This document shows, piece by piece, positions 23,743 through 29,507 of a DNA stretch of 64,000 nt. The stretch is taken from positions 1,340,001 through 1,404,000 of the forward strand of contig NZ_CP042467.1 of NCBI RefSeq assembly GCF_007993755.1, given 5' to 3'. The notes under the pieces are model-generated. The model was not told the DNA's origin. It was given only the letters and a program-made list of their open reading frames with translations, and searched no databases. Origin of the DNA: Microvenator marinus (GTDB taxonomy: Bacteria; Myxococcota_A; Bradymonadia; Bradymonadales; Bradymonadaceae). The position numbers were made by a program, and so were the translations under genes. Positions within the stretch are counted from its first letter, which is position 1. Each line of letters starts with the position of its first letter.

Positions 23743-24225
23743 ATGGGTTCTATCGAATTTTCTACGGAAATCACGACTCTGGGCGGCAAAAGCAAAACCC
23801 TTGAAGACTATAAGGGTTCCGTGATTTTGGTCGTCAATACGGCCTCAAAATGTGGGTTTACGCCGCAGTACAAGGGGCTCGAGGCTCTCTATCAGAAGTA
23901 CAAGGACCAAGGGCTCGTCGTGCTCGGATTTCCTTGCAATCAATTCGGAAAACAAGAGCCTGGCTCCGAGTCTGAAATTCAAGAGTTTTGCCAAATCAAC
24001 TACGGTGTGAGCTTTCCGATGCACGCCAAGGTCGATGTGAACGGCTCCGACACTCACCCACTCTTTAAGCAGCTCAAATCGGCAGCTCCAGGCTTACTCG
24101 GCACGGAAGCCATCAAGTGGAATTTCACCAAGTTTCTCATCGACCGCCAGGGAAATGTTGTGGAGCGATACGGCTCAAACACTGACCCTGCCGATATCGC
24201 CCCAAAGATCGAGTCCTTGCTCTAG
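23743..24225 (+). CDS. Glutathione peroxidase family protein (thioredoxin-dependent type)
   Basis: 160 residues with the peroxidatic Cys in NTASKCGFTPQY, the GFPCNQFGKQEPG motif (Gln and possible resolving Cys) and WNFTKFLID (Trp/Asn of the catalytic tetrad). It has Cys, not selenocysteine, so the ordinary bacterial BtuE-like type is expected, reducing hydroperoxides in the cytoplasm. TGGAGAT precedes the ATG. It is a single-gene unit. Confidence 0.95.
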   Translation: MGSIEFSTEITTLGGKSKTLEDYKGSVILVVNTASKCGFTPQYKGLEALYQKYKDQGLVVLGFPCNQFGKQEPGSESEIQEFCQINYGVSFPMHAKVDVNGSDTHPLFKQLKSAAPGLLGTEAIKWNFTKFLIDRQGNVVERYGSNTDPADIAPKIESLL

Positions 24226-24379
24226 GCCTCGGCTCCGACCATCTATCGATTTTCGCAGAGATCTGTTTCTGAGCTCGTGGCTAAGAATCGGTGATTGTCA
24301 TCGGACGGATTCCATCGTAAATTCTGGCCGCTTGTTATAGTTCGCGCTCATCGCTCAAATTAGCTTGAAGGGAGCTGAA

Positions 24380-25081
24380 GTGAATCATCAAATCACTCAC
24401 GACCCGTCCTTTTCCATGCTTCGCGTGGATTTGCAGCCGGGAGAAATTCTTGTGACGGAGGCCGGCGCTATGGCCGCCAAATCCGATCACGTTCAAATGG
24501 AAGCCAAACTCACGGTCCGTCCGGACGCGGGCCTTGGAACCACAGTCGGGGCCCTCTTCGCAGCGGTCATCCGAAGGTTCTTGGGCGGTGAGAGTTTCTT
24601 CGTTACCCACTATTCCACGAGCCAGCCAGGTACGGTTTGGGTCACGCCAACCATGAGCGGATCCATCGTCCACAGACGACTCGAAGCCGGCCAGACCATC
24701 ATGCTTTCCGCGGGTGCCTATGTGGCGTCCACCGGAGATCTCGACGTGATGGTCCAATACGGCGGCATCCGTGGAATCCTCGCCAAAGAAGGCGCCTTTT
24801 TCCTCAAAGTTGTCGGCAACGGTGGAGACCTCTGGTTCAATAGTTTCGGCGGAATCGAAGCTATCGACGTCAACGGCTCATACATGGTCGACAACGGCCA
24901 TATCGTGGGCTGGGAAGGTAATCTGCAGTTTGACATCAAGTCCGCGGGCGGCGGATTGATGGGCATGATGGCCTCCGGCGAAGGACTCGTTTGCGAGTTC
25001 AACGGCCAAGGACGCGTCTACATCCAAACACGAAATATGGGTTCAATCATTAGCTGGTTGCTCCCAATGATGCCGAGTTAG
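24380..25081 (+). CDS. AIM24/TIGR00266 family protein, first of three
   Basis: About 233 residues, beta-helix-like. Recognisable family segments: DPSFSMLRVDLQPGEILVTEAGAMAAKS at the N-terminus, LGGESFFVTHYSTSQPGTVWVTP in the middle, and SGEGLVCEFNGQGRVYIQTRN at the end. GTG start at 24380 preceded by AAGGGAG; a TTG at 24365 is the alternative. The molecular role of bacterial AIM24 proteins is not established; the yeast namesake is a mitochondrial inner-membrane organisation factor. It is followed by the second copy after 4 nt. Confidence 0.88.
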   Translation: MNHQITHDPSFSMLRVDLQPGEILVTEAGAMAAKSDHVQMEAKLTVRPDAGLGTTVGALFAAVIRRFLGGESFFVTHYSTSQPGTVWVTPTMSGSIVHRRLEAGQTIMLSAGAYVASTGDLDVMVQYGGIRGILAKEGAFFLKVVGNGGDLWFNSFGGIEAIDVNGSYMVDNGHIVGWEGNLQFDIKSAGGGLMGMMASGEGLVCEFNGQGRVYIQTRNMGSIISWLLPMMPS

Positions 25082-25085
25082 ACCC

Positions 25086-25793
25086 ATGAAATGTGAATTA
25101 TTATATCAACCCGTCAGCACCATGGCGCGGGTCACTTTGGACCCGAACGAGTCGTTCCTCGTGGAACCTGGCGCGATGGTCGGAATGTCTCCAAACCTCA
25201 ACATGACCACGGGCATGGCCTCGTCGAACTCCGGCGGTGGACTGCTCGGAAAAATCGCGAGTGCAGCTGGTCGGCTCCTCACCGGTGAGTCTTTTTTCCA
25301 GAACACCTACACCGCTCAAGGTGGCCCAGGTGAACTTCTCCTCGCGCACACGCTGCCTGGAGATATGGTGAAGATTCCGGTTCCTCAACAAGGCCTCAAG
25401 ATGCAGTCCGCGGGCTTCATCGCCAGTACGACGGGTGTCAACCTTCAGGCTGAGTTCGGTGGTGCACGCTCTTTCTTTGGTGGCGAGGGCCTCTTCCTCA
25501 TCAACGTCACCGCCAATGGGCCAAACCAAGAGATTTTGGTCGGCTCCTTCGGAGGCATCCAAGAACTCCAATGTGACGGCAATCTCGTCATCGATACCGG
25601 TCACCTTGTGGCGTGGGATGCTTCACTAAACTTCAATGTGACCAAAGCAGCAGGCGGCTGGATCGCCTCGTATCTCTCGGGCGAAGGCCTCGTTTGTAGG
25701 TTCCAAGGTCAGGGGCGTATCTGGATTCAAACCAGAAACCCCAACGAATTTGGCACCACGCTTGGCAAAATGCTCCCACCTCGAACCAACTAA
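25086..25793 (+). CDS. AIM24/TIGR00266 family protein, second of three
   Basis: 235 residues with the same plan: PNESFLVEPGAMVGMSPNL, LLTGESFFQNTYTAQGGPGELLLAHTLPGDMV, FFGGEGLFLINVTANGP and SGEGLVCRFQGQGRIWIQTRN. It differs clearly from copy one, with extra Gly/Ser in MASSNSGGGLLGKIAS, so the triplet is an old duplication and not a recent one. It is 4 nt after copy one and 9 nt before copy three, so almost surely one operon. Confidence 0.88.
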   Translation: MKCELLYQPVSTMARVTLDPNESFLVEPGAMVGMSPNLNMTTGMASSNSGGGLLGKIASAAGRLLTGESFFQNTYTAQGGPGELLLAHTLPGDMVKIPVPQQGLKMQSAGFIASTTGVNLQAEFGGARSFFGGEGLFLINVTANGPNQEILVGSFGGIQELQCDGNLVIDTGHLVAWDASLNFNVTKAAGGWIASYLSGEGLVCRFQGQGRIWIQTRNPNEFGTTLGKMLPPRTN

Positions 25794-25802
25794 AGGCAAA
25801 CC

Positions 25803-26486
25803 ATGCAATACGAAATACGTCAAAGACCCAATTTCAGCATCGCCAAAGTCGTGTTCGACACCCCAGGCGAGCAGCTCGTAGTCGAGGCAGCAGCAATGGT
25901 TGCAAAGGACTCGAGCATTCAGATGCAGACCAATATGCGCGGCGGTCTTATGGGTGCAGCCAAGCGCAAGTTACTAGGTGGTGAAAGCCTCTTTCAGAAC
26001 ACCTTCACGTCCACCCGACCCGGCGAAACCATTTGGGTAGCGCCTGCCGCTGAAGGCGACCTCTTGCCCTTTGATATGGACGGCCAACGCTCCGTCTTCA
26101 TGTCTTCCGGAAACTACGTCGCGTCTGGCCCAGGAATCACGCTTGATACCGCATTCCAAGGCGCCAAAGGCTTCTTTAGTGGCACGAGCCTCTTCATGAT
26201 CGAGGCCAAAGGCCAAGGTCCACTAATCCTTGGAAGCTATGGCGCGATTCACCCAGTCAAAGTGGGTCCGCAGGGATACCTGGTAGATAATAACCATATC
26301 GTGGCGTTCACTCAGGGATTGAACTACAGCATCCGAAAAGTCGGTGGCTTGCGTTCGCTCTTCAAAGGTGGCGAAGGTCTAATCTGCGAGTTCAAAGGGG
26401 AAGGCACCGTGTGGGTTGCCACACGCTCTTCTTCAGCGCTCGCCGCATTTGTACATCCTTTCCGTACCGTACAATCAAAGTCCTAG
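25803..26486 (+). CDS. AIM24/TIGR00266 family protein, third of three
   Basis: 227 residues. Family segments RPNFSIAKVVFDTPGEQLVVEAAAMVAKD, LLGGESLFQNTFTSTRPGETIWVAP, GFFSGTSLFMIEAKGQGP and GGEGLICEFKGEGTVWVATRS. AAAGG precedes the ATG. With the two preceding genes it makes an uninterrupted set of paralogues, which suggests a hetero-oligomeric beta-sandwich assembly. The following DUF808 gene starts 28 nt later and may share the transcript. Confidence 0.88.
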   Translation: MQYEIRQRPNFSIAKVVFDTPGEQLVVEAAAMVAKDSSIQMQTNMRGGLMGAAKRKLLGGESLFQNTFTSTRPGETIWVAPAAEGDLLPFDMDGQRSVFMSSGNYVASGPGITLDTAFQGAKGFFSGTSLFMIEAKGQGPLILGSYGAIHPVKVGPQGYLVDNNHIVAFTQGLNYSIRKVGGLRSLFKGGEGLICEFKGEGTVWVATRSSSALAAFVHPFRTVQSKS

Positions 26487-26514: not shown

Positions 26515-27435
26515 ATGGCTGGCGCGAATCTGCTCACTCTTATCGACGACATCGCCACAATGCTGGACGATGTCGCCATCTTGACCAAAGTCGCGGCAAA
26601 GAAGACCGCAGGTGTGCTCGGTGATGACCTTGCGCTCAACGCACAACAGGTCTCAGGGGTTGTCACCGACCGAGAATTGCCCGTGGTTTGGGCTGTGGCT
26701 AAAGGGTCCGCGCTAAACAAGGCGATACTTGTCCCGGCCGCACTCGGAATCAATTTCATCGCCCCATGGGCTGTGACCCCCTTGCTCATGCTCGGTGGCG
26801 CATTCCTTTGCTACGAGGGCTTTGAAAAGGTCGTCCATAAATTCTTCCATAAGGAAGAGCAACCCGAAGAGGGTGAAACACTGCAACACCTCATGAATTC
26901 TAGCCCCGAAGAGGTTGCAGAGTTTGAAAAGAACAAAGTCAAAGGCGCCATCCGCACAGACTTTATTCTTTCCGCCGAGATCATCGTGATCTCGCTCGGC
27001 ACGGTTCAGGCCTCGCCGTTCATGACCCAACTTGGTGTACTGACGACCATCTCGGTGCTCATGACCGTGGGCGTGTACGGGCTCGTGGCTGGTATCGTTA
27101 AACTAGACGACGTGGGCCTCCACCTCACCCAGAAGCCGAGCGCGGCTCTTGCTGCGTTTGGGCGCGGCATTGTGCGTTTCTCCCCAATCCTGATGAAGCT
27201 CCTCGGAATCGCCGGTACAGTAGCTATGTTCTTGGTGGGTGGAGATATCATGGCGCACGGTATCCCTGGCGCGATGGACCTTTCAGCTACCATCGCTGCG
27301 GCTTCTGGCCCGCTAGCCTTCATCACCCCTACCTTATTCTCTGGGCTCATCGGTGTACTGACCGGAGCCGTAGTCTTGGGTTTGGTGACATTCGTCAAGA
27401 GGTTGAAGCCGACCGCAAAGGCTCCTTCAACATAA
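26515..27435 (+). CDS. DUF808 inner-membrane protein (YedI-like)
   Basis: 306 residues with the DUF808 N-terminus (AGANLLTLIDDIATMLDDVAILTKVAAKKTAGVLGDDLALNA) and several membrane segments (LVPAALGINFIAPWAVTPLLMLGGAFLCYEG, DFILSAEIIVISLGTV, LGVLTTISVLMTVGVYGLVAGIV, LLGIAGTVAMFLVGGDIMAHG). A charged loop between the first two hydrophobic blocks contains HKFFHKEEQPEEGE. The function of this family is unknown. It is probably co-transcribed with the AIM24 triplet. Confidence 0.88.
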   Translation: MAGANLLTLIDDIATMLDDVAILTKVAAKKTAGVLGDDLALNAQQVSGVVTDRELPVVWAVAKGSALNKAILVPAALGINFIAPWAVTPLLMLGGAFLCYEGFEKVVHKFFHKEEQPEEGETLQHLMNSSPEEVAEFEKNKVKGAIRTDFILSAEIIVISLGTVQASPFMTQLGVLTTISVLMTVGVYGLVAGIVKLDDVGLHLTQKPSAALAAFGRGIVRFSPILMKLLGIAGTVAMFLVGGDIMAHGIPGAMDLSATIAAASGPLAFITPTLFSGLIGVLTGAVVLGLVTFVKRLKPTAKAPST

Positions 27436-27438
27436 GAC

Positions 27439-27486
27439 TTTCAGGTTCTTTCAGATCGATTTCAGGGGGTTTCATTAGGTTTTCAG
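27439..27486 (+). promoter_or_regulatory. Five phased TTTCA direct repeats (OmpR/PhoB-like operator array)
   Basis: TTTCAG/T begins at 27439, 27449, 27460, 27470 and 27481, with spacings 10, 11, 10 and 11 nt, so all copies face the same side of the helix. Direct repeats at about 10.5-11 bp are how OmpR/PhoB-type response regulators bind as head-to-tail dimers; the pho box is built of CTGTCA units at 11 bp. The array lies directly after the DUF808 stop and 51 nt before the lipoprotein start at 27537. A weak -10 (GTTAAT, 27515-27520) follows. Confidence 0.55.
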
Positions 27487-27536
27487 GGACCTGAACCCCT
27501 AGGTTCGCTTTGTTGTTAATTCAGACGAGGTGAACA

Positions 27537-29507
27537 ATGGTTAAATCAATTCGAAATCTTCTCCCAATTCTTCTACTTGGCGCGTGTGCTCCAATCGACG
27601 ACGCAAATGAAGGTGTTGACCCAGTCGATGAATGTGTCTTCTGCGACGACAAGGCCGACGCCTTCGGCATCTCCAGAAACTCCTACCTCGCCTACGGGAT
27701 CGTACACCTCGCGAACAACGCGAGCTTGAGTGTCCTCGATGACGATGTCCCACTTGATGCTCGTGCTGCGCAGGGAATCGTAAACCAACGTCCATTCGAG
27801 TTTATCGAAGAGGTAGACACAGTCCCCTATGTTGGGAAGGTCGCCTTCAACAACATGGCTTCATACGTTCAAGACAACGGACTCGTCCCCTTCTGCGGGG
27901 ATGGTCAGGTGCAAAACCTGCTCGAAGCATGTGATGACGGCAATCAGGCAGATGGCGATGGTTGCTCATCAACGTGCGAGGTCGAGTCAGGGTCTACAAA
28001 CACTTTCTTTGCTGAGCAGCCTGAACTGATAAAAGGTGATGCCATTGGAGTCGCCCTTGTGGACGCAAACGGCTTTTACTTCAGAACTCGGACCCTGGAG
28101 AGCCTGAGGGTCGACGGCGAGCTCTTGGAGCTACTGGAGCGCGCTGACGGTATTATTGCGAACCGTGAAGAAGACGAGAGCATCGACTGGGACGAGCTTA
28201 AGATTCTCTCTCAAGAGCCATTTTACAGCTCGCTCTTTGCGGACGAAAAGGCGGCACTTGCACAAGCCTGGGAGCTGCTTCGCATCAATACTGCGCCAAC
28301 GGCCGTCGTCGAATACTACGGGGATGTTCATACCACCTATCCGTACGACGTGAAGATCGAGCGACCTGGTCCTGTTGAAGTCTACACGGTGGTCGATATC
28401 TCAAGCGCAGACTCAAATGCAGCTGTACGTCGCCTCCAGCAGCTTCCTGGATTGAATCGAGACGGCGACCCGAACACGGTCGAACTCTACGACCTCGAAA
28501 AGGGCATCGAAGACTTCTATCAGGTCTTCACTCAATCTGAACTCGACAGCTTCGAGCGCAGCATCCAACGAATGTTCGACACTGCGCTTCCATCCTCTGG
28601 AGGTGAGTTTGTCATCGAGTATGACTTCTTGCCCGAGCCTTCGACTCAGCGCGAAATCGTCACCGAATTCGATGGTTGGGAGTTTTCATTCACCGCATCT
28701 CGAGAGCTTCACTACGACGCAATCGACGGCGGCAGTGGATACTACGACACATCTTTTGACGGAAACCTGCAAGTCAAAGCAAGCCTCAAAACCATGCTCA
28801 AGTACAACGGAAAGTCAGCGTGGTTTTGCGGCGGTTGGAACATGTGTTCGAGCCGGCCATTCCGATTTGAGGGCGTCAGATGGCAACGCCTAAACGGCAC
28901 ACAAACGTACCCGAACGAGCGCGGACTTATGCTCATGGAGTACTGGAAAGACGGTGAGCGCATCTACAACCGACTCGTGGAGTTCAAGCAATCTTTCATG
29001 GAGTGGGAGAGAACATCCTACATGAACGAGTACATGGGCGCTCGACCACAACTGAAGACCGGGCAGCCGCTCTCGTTCCGAAAGATCGGGACTCATCGCT
29101 ACAATGGCGACTACTACAATCGCTACCGTCTCAACGAAGTCAGCACGGTCTTTCATCGAAACCTAACCCGCTTCTTCCCAGAAAGTGCCGACATGATTCG
29201 TACACGGTTGCCGATGGGGCGTTACCAGGAGTTCGAAGGGGTCTCGCTTGACATACATTCCTCGGGCAACGCGATCGCCTACTTCGATGGCTGCACATTG
29301 CCCTTCAAGTTCCAAGACGGGCACTTGGAGACCGACAAGTGCAATAACGGCAGAAAGGCTAAGATCTACTTCTCCAACGGAGGCGCCGAACTCTTGGTGA
29401 TGGGTTCAAACACCAAGCGAATTCATATCACCACACCCTATTCGCAGTACGAAACTCTTGAGCTCGACCGTTCCGACTACGTGATTCGAAATACCTTGGC
29501 TCCGTGA
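27537..29507 (+). CDS. DUF4215 Cys-rich repeat lipoprotein of unknown function
   Basis: 656 residues. Lipoprotein signal MVKSIRNLLPILLLGAC, then a Cys pair (CVFCDDKADAFG). Residues about 75-115 resemble a helix-hairpin-helix-like unit (FEFIEEVDTVPYVGKVAFNNMASYV). At about 118-145 there is one DUF4215 repeat (CGDGQVQNLLEACDDGNQADGDGCSSTCEVE), typical of secreted proteins of myxobacteria and relatives. The rest has a large alpha/beta region and aromatic-rich strands with no family I recognise. It is probably anchored in the outer membrane. The phased repeat array upstream suggests response-regulator control. Confidence 0.75.
   Translation: MVKSIRNLLPILLLGACAPIDDANEGVDPVDECVFCDDKADAFGISRNSYLAYGIVHLANNASLSVLDDDVPLDARAAQGIVNQRPFEFIEEVDTVPYVGKVAFNNMASYVQDNGLVPFCGDGQVQNLLEACDDGNQADGDGCSSTCEVESGSTNTFFAEQPELIKGDAIGVALVDANGFYFRTRTLESLRVDGELLELLERADGIIANREEDESIDWDELKILSQEPFYSSLFADEKAALAQAWELLRINTAPTAVVEYYGDVHTTYPYDVKIERPGPVEVYTVVDISSADSNAAVRRLQQLPGLNRDGDPNTVELYDLEKGIEDFYQVFTQSELDSFERSIQRMFDTALPSSGGEFVIEYDFLPEPSTQREIVTEFDGWEFSFTASRELHYDAIDGGSGYYDTSFDGNLQVKASLKTMLKYNGKSAWFCGGWNMCSSRPFRFEGVRWQRLNGTQTYPNERGLMLMEYWKDGERIYNRLVEFKQSFMEWERTSYMNEYMGARPQLKTGQPLSFRKIGTHRYNGDYYNRYRLNEVSTVFHRNLTRFFPESADMIRTRLPMGRYQEFEGVSLDIHSSGNAIAYFDGCTLPFKFQDGHLETDKCNNGRKAKIYFSNGGAELLVMGSNTKRIHITTPYSQYETLELDRSDYVIRNTLAP

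Follow-up and report, generated by a model that had tools for sequence, protein, structure and literature searches.

The window that we analysed is a stretch of 64,000 nucleotides from the genome of Microvenator marinus, which is genome G000 in our comparisons. (The genus has been renamed Allomicrovenator, according to an excerpt of PMC12872784.) Three AIM24-like genes in series (24383-26486) are followed by a DUF808 gene (26515-27435), which directly precedes a lipoprotein gene on the same strand (27537-29507, forward strand). (Two of the AIM24-like genes match PF01987, and the first was assigned by similar sequence.) The lipoprotein gene is an open reading frame for a protein of 656 amino acids, with a lipobox-like LLLGAC and a short stretch of DUF4215. 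The Pfam match to DUF4215 is weak (29.2 bits versus a cut-off of 27). Homologues of the protein are found in genomes G004 (50%) and G001 (46%). (Its predicted structure has a mean pLDDT of 43.3 and was left unused.)

The 101-nt gap between the DUF808 gene and the lipoprotein gene contains five copies of TTTCA. They start at positions 27439, 27449, 27460, 27470, and 27481, which gives steps of 10, 11, 10, and 11 nt. The copies span 27439-27485, or 27439-27486 if the final G of copy 5 is included; copies 1, 2, 3, and 5 read TTTCAG and copy 4 reads TTTCAT. The original prediction, of five TTTCA copies at 10-11-10-11 spacing upstream of a DUF4215 lipoprotein and lying as direct repeats on one face of the helix, agrees with these coordinates and steps. 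No chain of TTTCA at 10 or 11 nt in the window is longer than these five. Of 200 windows resampled with a second-order Markov model, 125 had a longest chain of 1 and 75 a longest chain of 2; a chain of five never arose. Across the whole genome (5,847,748 bases), the array is the only place with at least three exact TTTCA copies in a row at 10 or 11 nt, and the backward control for such chains gave 0 matches. We ruled out a plain tandem repeat because the spacers differ; also, Tandem Repeats Finder (score 30) reported no repeat in 27300-27700.

Pairs of TTTCA alone at 10 or 11 nt occur 34 times, versus 15 in the backward control, and many of them lie within genes. We dropped TTTCA as the unit because TTTCAG at exactly 10 nt was sharper. 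There are 46 TTTCAG pairs in the genome with gaps of 0 to 30 nt. Eleven of these have a gap of 4 nt (N4), and the other 30 gaps share 35 pairs, or about 1.2 each. The only pair at N5 (an 11-nt step) in the genome is the one in the window. Therefore, the recurring and probably functional box is TTTCAG-N4-TTTCAG, with its half-sites one helical turn apart. Sites for OmpR/PhoB-type regulators are direct repeats of two half-sites 10-11 bp apart, and the box has this form, with TTTCAG enriched only at N4. The original prediction had proposed a genome scan for further phased copies of TTTCAG, and the 11 exact N4 pairs are such copies. (A different repeat that contains TTTCAG lies at G000:C1:2565464-2565538, in loci L079-L081. 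It is a 23-nt tandem repeat with the unit TTTCAGTAGTGAAATTGTAACGC, and its spacing is unrelated to the box.)

We scanned 95 genomes for the exact box. The highest counts (with the backward control in parentheses) are 11 (0) in G000, 22 (1) in G004, 7 (0) in G016, and 6 (0) in G018. All the other genomes have at most 5 exact boxes; G049 has 5, three of them at one place. The 48 exact sites that we analysed are those of the four genomes above and 2 from G010. In 45 of the 48, C or G directly precedes the second half-site. If up to one mismatch is allowed, then among the 21 genomes of the family, there are 57 sites in G000 versus 30 for the control, and 56 versus 21 in G004. The corresponding counts are 22 versus 12 in G016 and 16 versus 6 in G018. 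G003 has 18 sites versus 6 for the control, yet no exact box. In G013, which belongs to the genus of G016 and G018, the motif is absent (8 sites with up to one mismatch versus 8 for the control). A caveat is that some sites of G018 and G016 are likely shared and not independent (L186/L191, L187/L192, L188/L193, and L190/L195). We conclude, at the level of sequence, that the motif is real and that it recurs.

Arrays of at least three half-sites (with up to one mismatch allowed per half-site) are found at nine places in 469 kb and at none in five shuffles. Because these loci were preselected for pairs, we estimate that about two such places would be a fairer expectation. The array in the window is the longest of the nine; four copies are found at each of L275 (an endonuclease I lipoprotein of G004) and L109 (a lipoprotein of G000). 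The original prediction held that such a long array is uncommon, which is overstated. ArcA of E. coli, a member of the OmpR/PhoB family, also binds direct repeats at about one helical turn, and 92 of its 158 sites contain three to five of them (according to an excerpt of PMC3798270). Array length alone is therefore not unusual for this kind of site.

We then examined the genes next to the sites. Most of the sites lie 30-150 bp before start codons, often those of lipoprotein genes. None of the 11 exact sites in G000 is inside a called gene; the other four genomes together have 5 of 37 inside. (Both the gene caller and the lipobox rule by which we recognised lipoproteins were home-made.) We considered a gene to be a target if it has an exact box 20-150 nt before its start. 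In G000, 7 of 12 targets are lipoprotein-like, versus 28 of 185 other genes of the same loci (P = 0.0013). The bias is stronger in G004 (15 of 24 versus 15 of 134, P = 2e-7). In G016 and G018 together, the difference is not significant (5 of 9 versus 13 of 53, P = 0.07). A caveat is that our first lipobox rule (24 of 49 versus 50 of 276 over all loci) missed evident lipoproteins and was then loosened; the new rule was used for targets and background alike. We conclude from these gene calls that the targets are biased toward predicted lipoproteins.

The targets in G000 with lipoprotein-like starts include EGF-domain, PKD/beta-helix, endonuclease I, and receptor-L-domain proteins. Another target in G000 has a BRCT domain and no lipoprotein-like start. 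Homologous genes of G000 and G004 can both be boxed (with up to one mismatch). Examples are the window gene and L173 (47%), L118 and L172, L119 and L171 (65%), L120 and L176 (57%), L121 and L185 (in the BRCT region), L122 and L275 (53% over 180 residues), L127 and L180, and L130 and L166. In the pairs of the window gene with L173 and of L118 with L172, the box points one way in G000 and the other way in G004. For the G001 homologue of the window gene, visual inspection of the 280 nt before the start revealed no box. The first AIM24 gene has a homologue in G004 (L168) whose start lies 72 nt after an exact box; before the first AIM24 gene of the window, none was seen by eye in 24180-24420. Overall, the box belongs to a regulon, and the original prediction was wrong in describing the array as serving a single envelope gene. 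We also noticed that some of the boxed lipoproteins share an N-terminal module (similar to DxRAA..I...R....GADG). These are encoded at L122 3532-4530, L126 3353-5221, L133 2064-3419, and 27537-29507 of the window. The C-terminal parts that are joined to this module differ (for example, endonuclease I or a receptor L domain).

The distance from the box to the promoter depends on orientation. The 48 exact sites give 28 gene-site pairs with the box in the orientation of the gene and 20 pairs with the box reversed. We looked for TA, as the start of a -10 hexamer, downstream of the box, and the background for the P values came from all other offsets in these sequences. Among 27 usable pairs in the same orientation, TA follows the box at 22-24 nt in 17 (the other bins have a mean of 0.11, P = 1.7e-10). 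Of the 20 reversed pairs, 11 have TA 37-39 nt after the box (mean 0.105, P = 1.1e-6). The peak of one group is missing in the other (4 of 26 and 3 of 20). The hexamers at these distances are of the kind TACGTT, TAGGTT, or TACATT. Because the offset bins were picked after viewing the exact sites, we used sites with one mismatch as an independent set and excluded those near exact sites. (We examined 45 of 46 one-mismatch sites in G000 and 33 of 34 in G004.) In this set, 11 of 20 pairs in the same orientation have TA at 22-24 nt (P = 1.1e-5), which confirms the forward spacing. Only 4 of 14 reversed pairs have TA at 37-39 nt (P = 0.07), so the reverse spacing, which appears in one set only, is only suggested. 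Sites within called genes have no forward peak (3 of 37 at 22-24 nt). When these sites are read in reverse, 7 of 37 have TA at 37-39 nt (P = 0.008), which is unexplained unless some of the genes were wrongly called. Since the distance between box and promoter is fixed, these results suggest that the boxed genes are turned on together by one putative activator.

The array in the window can be read in these terms. Copies 1-2 (TTTCAGGTTCTTTCAG, 27439-27454, forward strand) are an exact box, one of the 11 in the genome, and would be the upstream dimer site. Copies 3-4 (TTTCAGGGGGTTTCAT, 27460-27475, forward strand) are a box with one mismatch and would be the promoter-proximal dimer site. They lie 24 nt before TAGGTT (27500-27505, forward strand), which fits the spacing of 22-24 nt and is our proposed -10 element. 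With this element, transcription is predicted to start near 27512. TAGGTT also occurs at 23-24 nt from the box in L177 and L168. A second TAGGTT (27476-27481), 21 nt after copies 1-2, is an alternative promoter. Copies 1-2 sit 21 nt upstream of copies 3-4, which is one dimer length. Copy 5 (TTTCAG, 27481-27486, forward strand) is a lone extra half-site that overlaps the expected -35 region and may also be bound. The inverted repeat TTCAGG-GA-CCTGAA (27482-27495) shares positions with copy 5 and with the spacer of the proposed promoter. It is the only such match in the window (0.23 expected by chance) and is possibly a site for a second protein.

How would the box act? Identical half-sites one helical turn apart suggest that two identical DNA-binding domains would bind TTTCAG-N4-TTTCAG head to tail. 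In the forward orientation, the dimer would immediately precede the -35 region, at a distance of 23 nt from the -10 element; in the reversed orientation, this distance would be 38 nt. The bound dimer would then aid a sigma70-type RNA polymerase. At the window gene, two dimers (on copies 1-2 and 3-4), perhaps with the fifth half-site, would bind side by side and probably cooperatively. The half-sites are identical, and the distance to the -10 element is fixed to about one base and is 15 nt longer if the box is reversed. We read this combination as the need of a putative head-to-tail dimer to touch RNA polymerase.

These distances resemble those of PhoP from Salmonella, which belongs to the OmpR/PhoB family. 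According to an excerpt of PMC3335776, PhoP boxes also have two direct half-sites one turn apart. Direct PhoP boxes lie 21-23 nt before the -10 element (architecture III; IV is similar) and reversed boxes lie at 30 to 58 nt, 37 among them. Activity was measured at 23 nt for direct boxes and at 27, 37, and 48 nt for reversed boxes (PMC3335776). A fixed and orientation-dependent distance to the -10 element, as measured for PhoP, is what we found, with the reverse part at 4 of 14 in the second set. The array is also similar in that many PhoP promoters have two boxes. On the other hand, the excerpt gives the half-site of PhoP as (T/G)GTTTA, instead of TTTCAG; PhoP has an 11-12 nt class, which gives no peak here; and the targets and regulator may differ. 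ArcA, unlike the proposed activator, is mostly a repressor. Its direct repeats are bound cooperatively by adjacent dimers, and they have steps of 11 nt, unlike the 10 nt within each pair here, as well as a different sequence (PMC3798270). Overall, the array probably serves as the operator for an activator that binds as head-to-tail dimers, is probably OmpR/PhoB-like, and controls a regulon made up largely of surface lipoproteins in Microvenator and some of its relatives.

We then considered which regulator might be responsible. G000 encodes six proteins with an OmpR-type domain. Their best models, all below the curated cut-offs, include PhoB-like for L211, CreB-like for L223, CseB-like for L229, and a metal type for L219; L203 adjoins a CusA-type efflux gene, and L227 adjoins a gene with weak similarity to Spy/CpxP. 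Near OmpR-type regulator genes, no box with up to one mismatch was found at the 18 loci scanned, which include all six of G000, so we rejected autoregulation of these regulators. (A box with two mismatches at L202 2238-2253, 57 nt before a gene for an OmpR-type regulator in G004 and with TA at 25 nt, is a weak lead to an autoregulated regulator.) Among the eight genomes searched, the group of L229 is found in G000 and G004 only. G016 and G018 also carry the motif, so they would need another protein. In G016 and G018, we found only two OmpR-type regulators. Both are kept in G013, where they are 93% and 97-98% identical and have unchanged recognition helices, and G013 lacks the motif. Judging from these comparisons, their persistence argues against the simplest version of an OmpR/PhoB-type regulator. 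So, of the original prediction that PhoB/OmpR-type proteins bind as tandem dimers, the promoter spacing fits the family, but the two regulators found in G016 and G018 do not follow the motif.

The protein might therefore be of another type that acts on the same regulon with the same geometry, such as an AraC/MarA-like or a ribbon-helix-helix protein on repeated boxes. Ribbon-helix-helix proteins bind arrays of repeated boxes, and, as described above, neither of the two OmpR-type regulators that we found in G016 and G018 follows the motif. Moreover, the marboxes of MarA, SoxS, and Rob (of the AraC family) also link orientation to distance: according to an excerpt of PMC6900184, MarA boxes of class II are forward and overlap the -35 element, and those of class I, at about -50 to -70, are usually reversed. 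However, MarA binds as a monomer to a box that is described there as having no direct repeat (PMC6900184). Instead of such an asymmetric site, we have half-sites that are identical (by definition of the enriched pair), which suggests identical domains arranged head to tail. Also, the distances match those of PhoP closely. We consider a protein from outside the OmpR/PhoB family to be possible but unlikely. That the box is instead the operator of a repressor seems improbable. The sites border on the core promoter or reach into it (as copy 5 does with the expected -35 region), and the boxes are free in orientation, which a repressor would tolerate. But a repressor has no need for a distance to the -10 element that is fixed to about one base and depends on orientation.

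Specific control by PhoB under phosphate limitation, which the original prediction had raised, is very unlikely. The PhoB boxes of the Pho regulon consist of direct TGTCA half-sites, which contain a TCA core and are repeated about once per helical turn. The array shares the core and the spacing, and TTTCA resembles TGTCA but is not the same. There is also a PhoB-like regulator, L211, which scores 263.9 bits against a PhoB cut-off of 296.2. In G000 and G004, no protein passed the TIGR00972 cut-off for PstB; 13 of 14 control genomes have such a protein. (Both G000 and G004 may therefore lack the high-affinity phosphate transporter.) No box with up to two mismatches was found upstream of L211 in the roughly 3.2 kb read, and one box with two mismatches lies downstream of its kinase gene. 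Thus, neither Pst genes preceded by a box nor a box before the phoB-like gene was found, and no phosphate gene was recognised among the Pfam-named targets. Furthermore, the PhoB-like group is present in motif-free genomes such as G013 and G005, and the one in G013 is a close relative of L211. For lack of PstB, of a box at L211, and of a PhoB-level score for L211, we rejected phosphate control. Chance, DNA bent by phased runs of T, or an element that acts in the RNA is the least credible explanation. The T-runs are phased, and the predicted transcript fold of 27430-27545 has a z of -1.95 (10 of 200 shuffles are at least as stable). But chance is excluded by the Markov windows, the genome-wide scan for chains, and the enrichment at N4. 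The exact spacing of 10 and the C or G before the second half-site go beyond runs of T. We rejected an RNA element because boxes occur in both orientations relative to the genes, even between homologous pairs.

In the literature covered, which leaves out most subscription journals, we found nothing relevant on this motif or on regulons of Bradymonadales, Bradymonadia, or Myxococcota. As an operator of direct repeats for an activator, the box is of a known kind; it defines a lineage-restricted, lipoprotein-rich regulon with a rule for promoter spacing. A more speculative idea, which we think is rather doubtful, is that a dedicated activator, possibly from outside the OmpR/PhoB family, co-activates the secreted surface lipoproteins of a predatory lineage, with arrays that grade the response gene by gene. 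If a protein from outside that family is responsible, then the rule of 23 nt forward and 38 nt reversed would have been reached independently by unrelated activators.

The agreement between a spacing derived from sequence and the measurements for Salmonella PhoP suggests that this approach may be useful for locating promoters and the operators of activators in bacteria without genetics. For the Bradymonadia, which are facultative predators, it gives a regulon that is open to testing. Since its targets are largely surface lipoproteins, they could take part in contact with prey.
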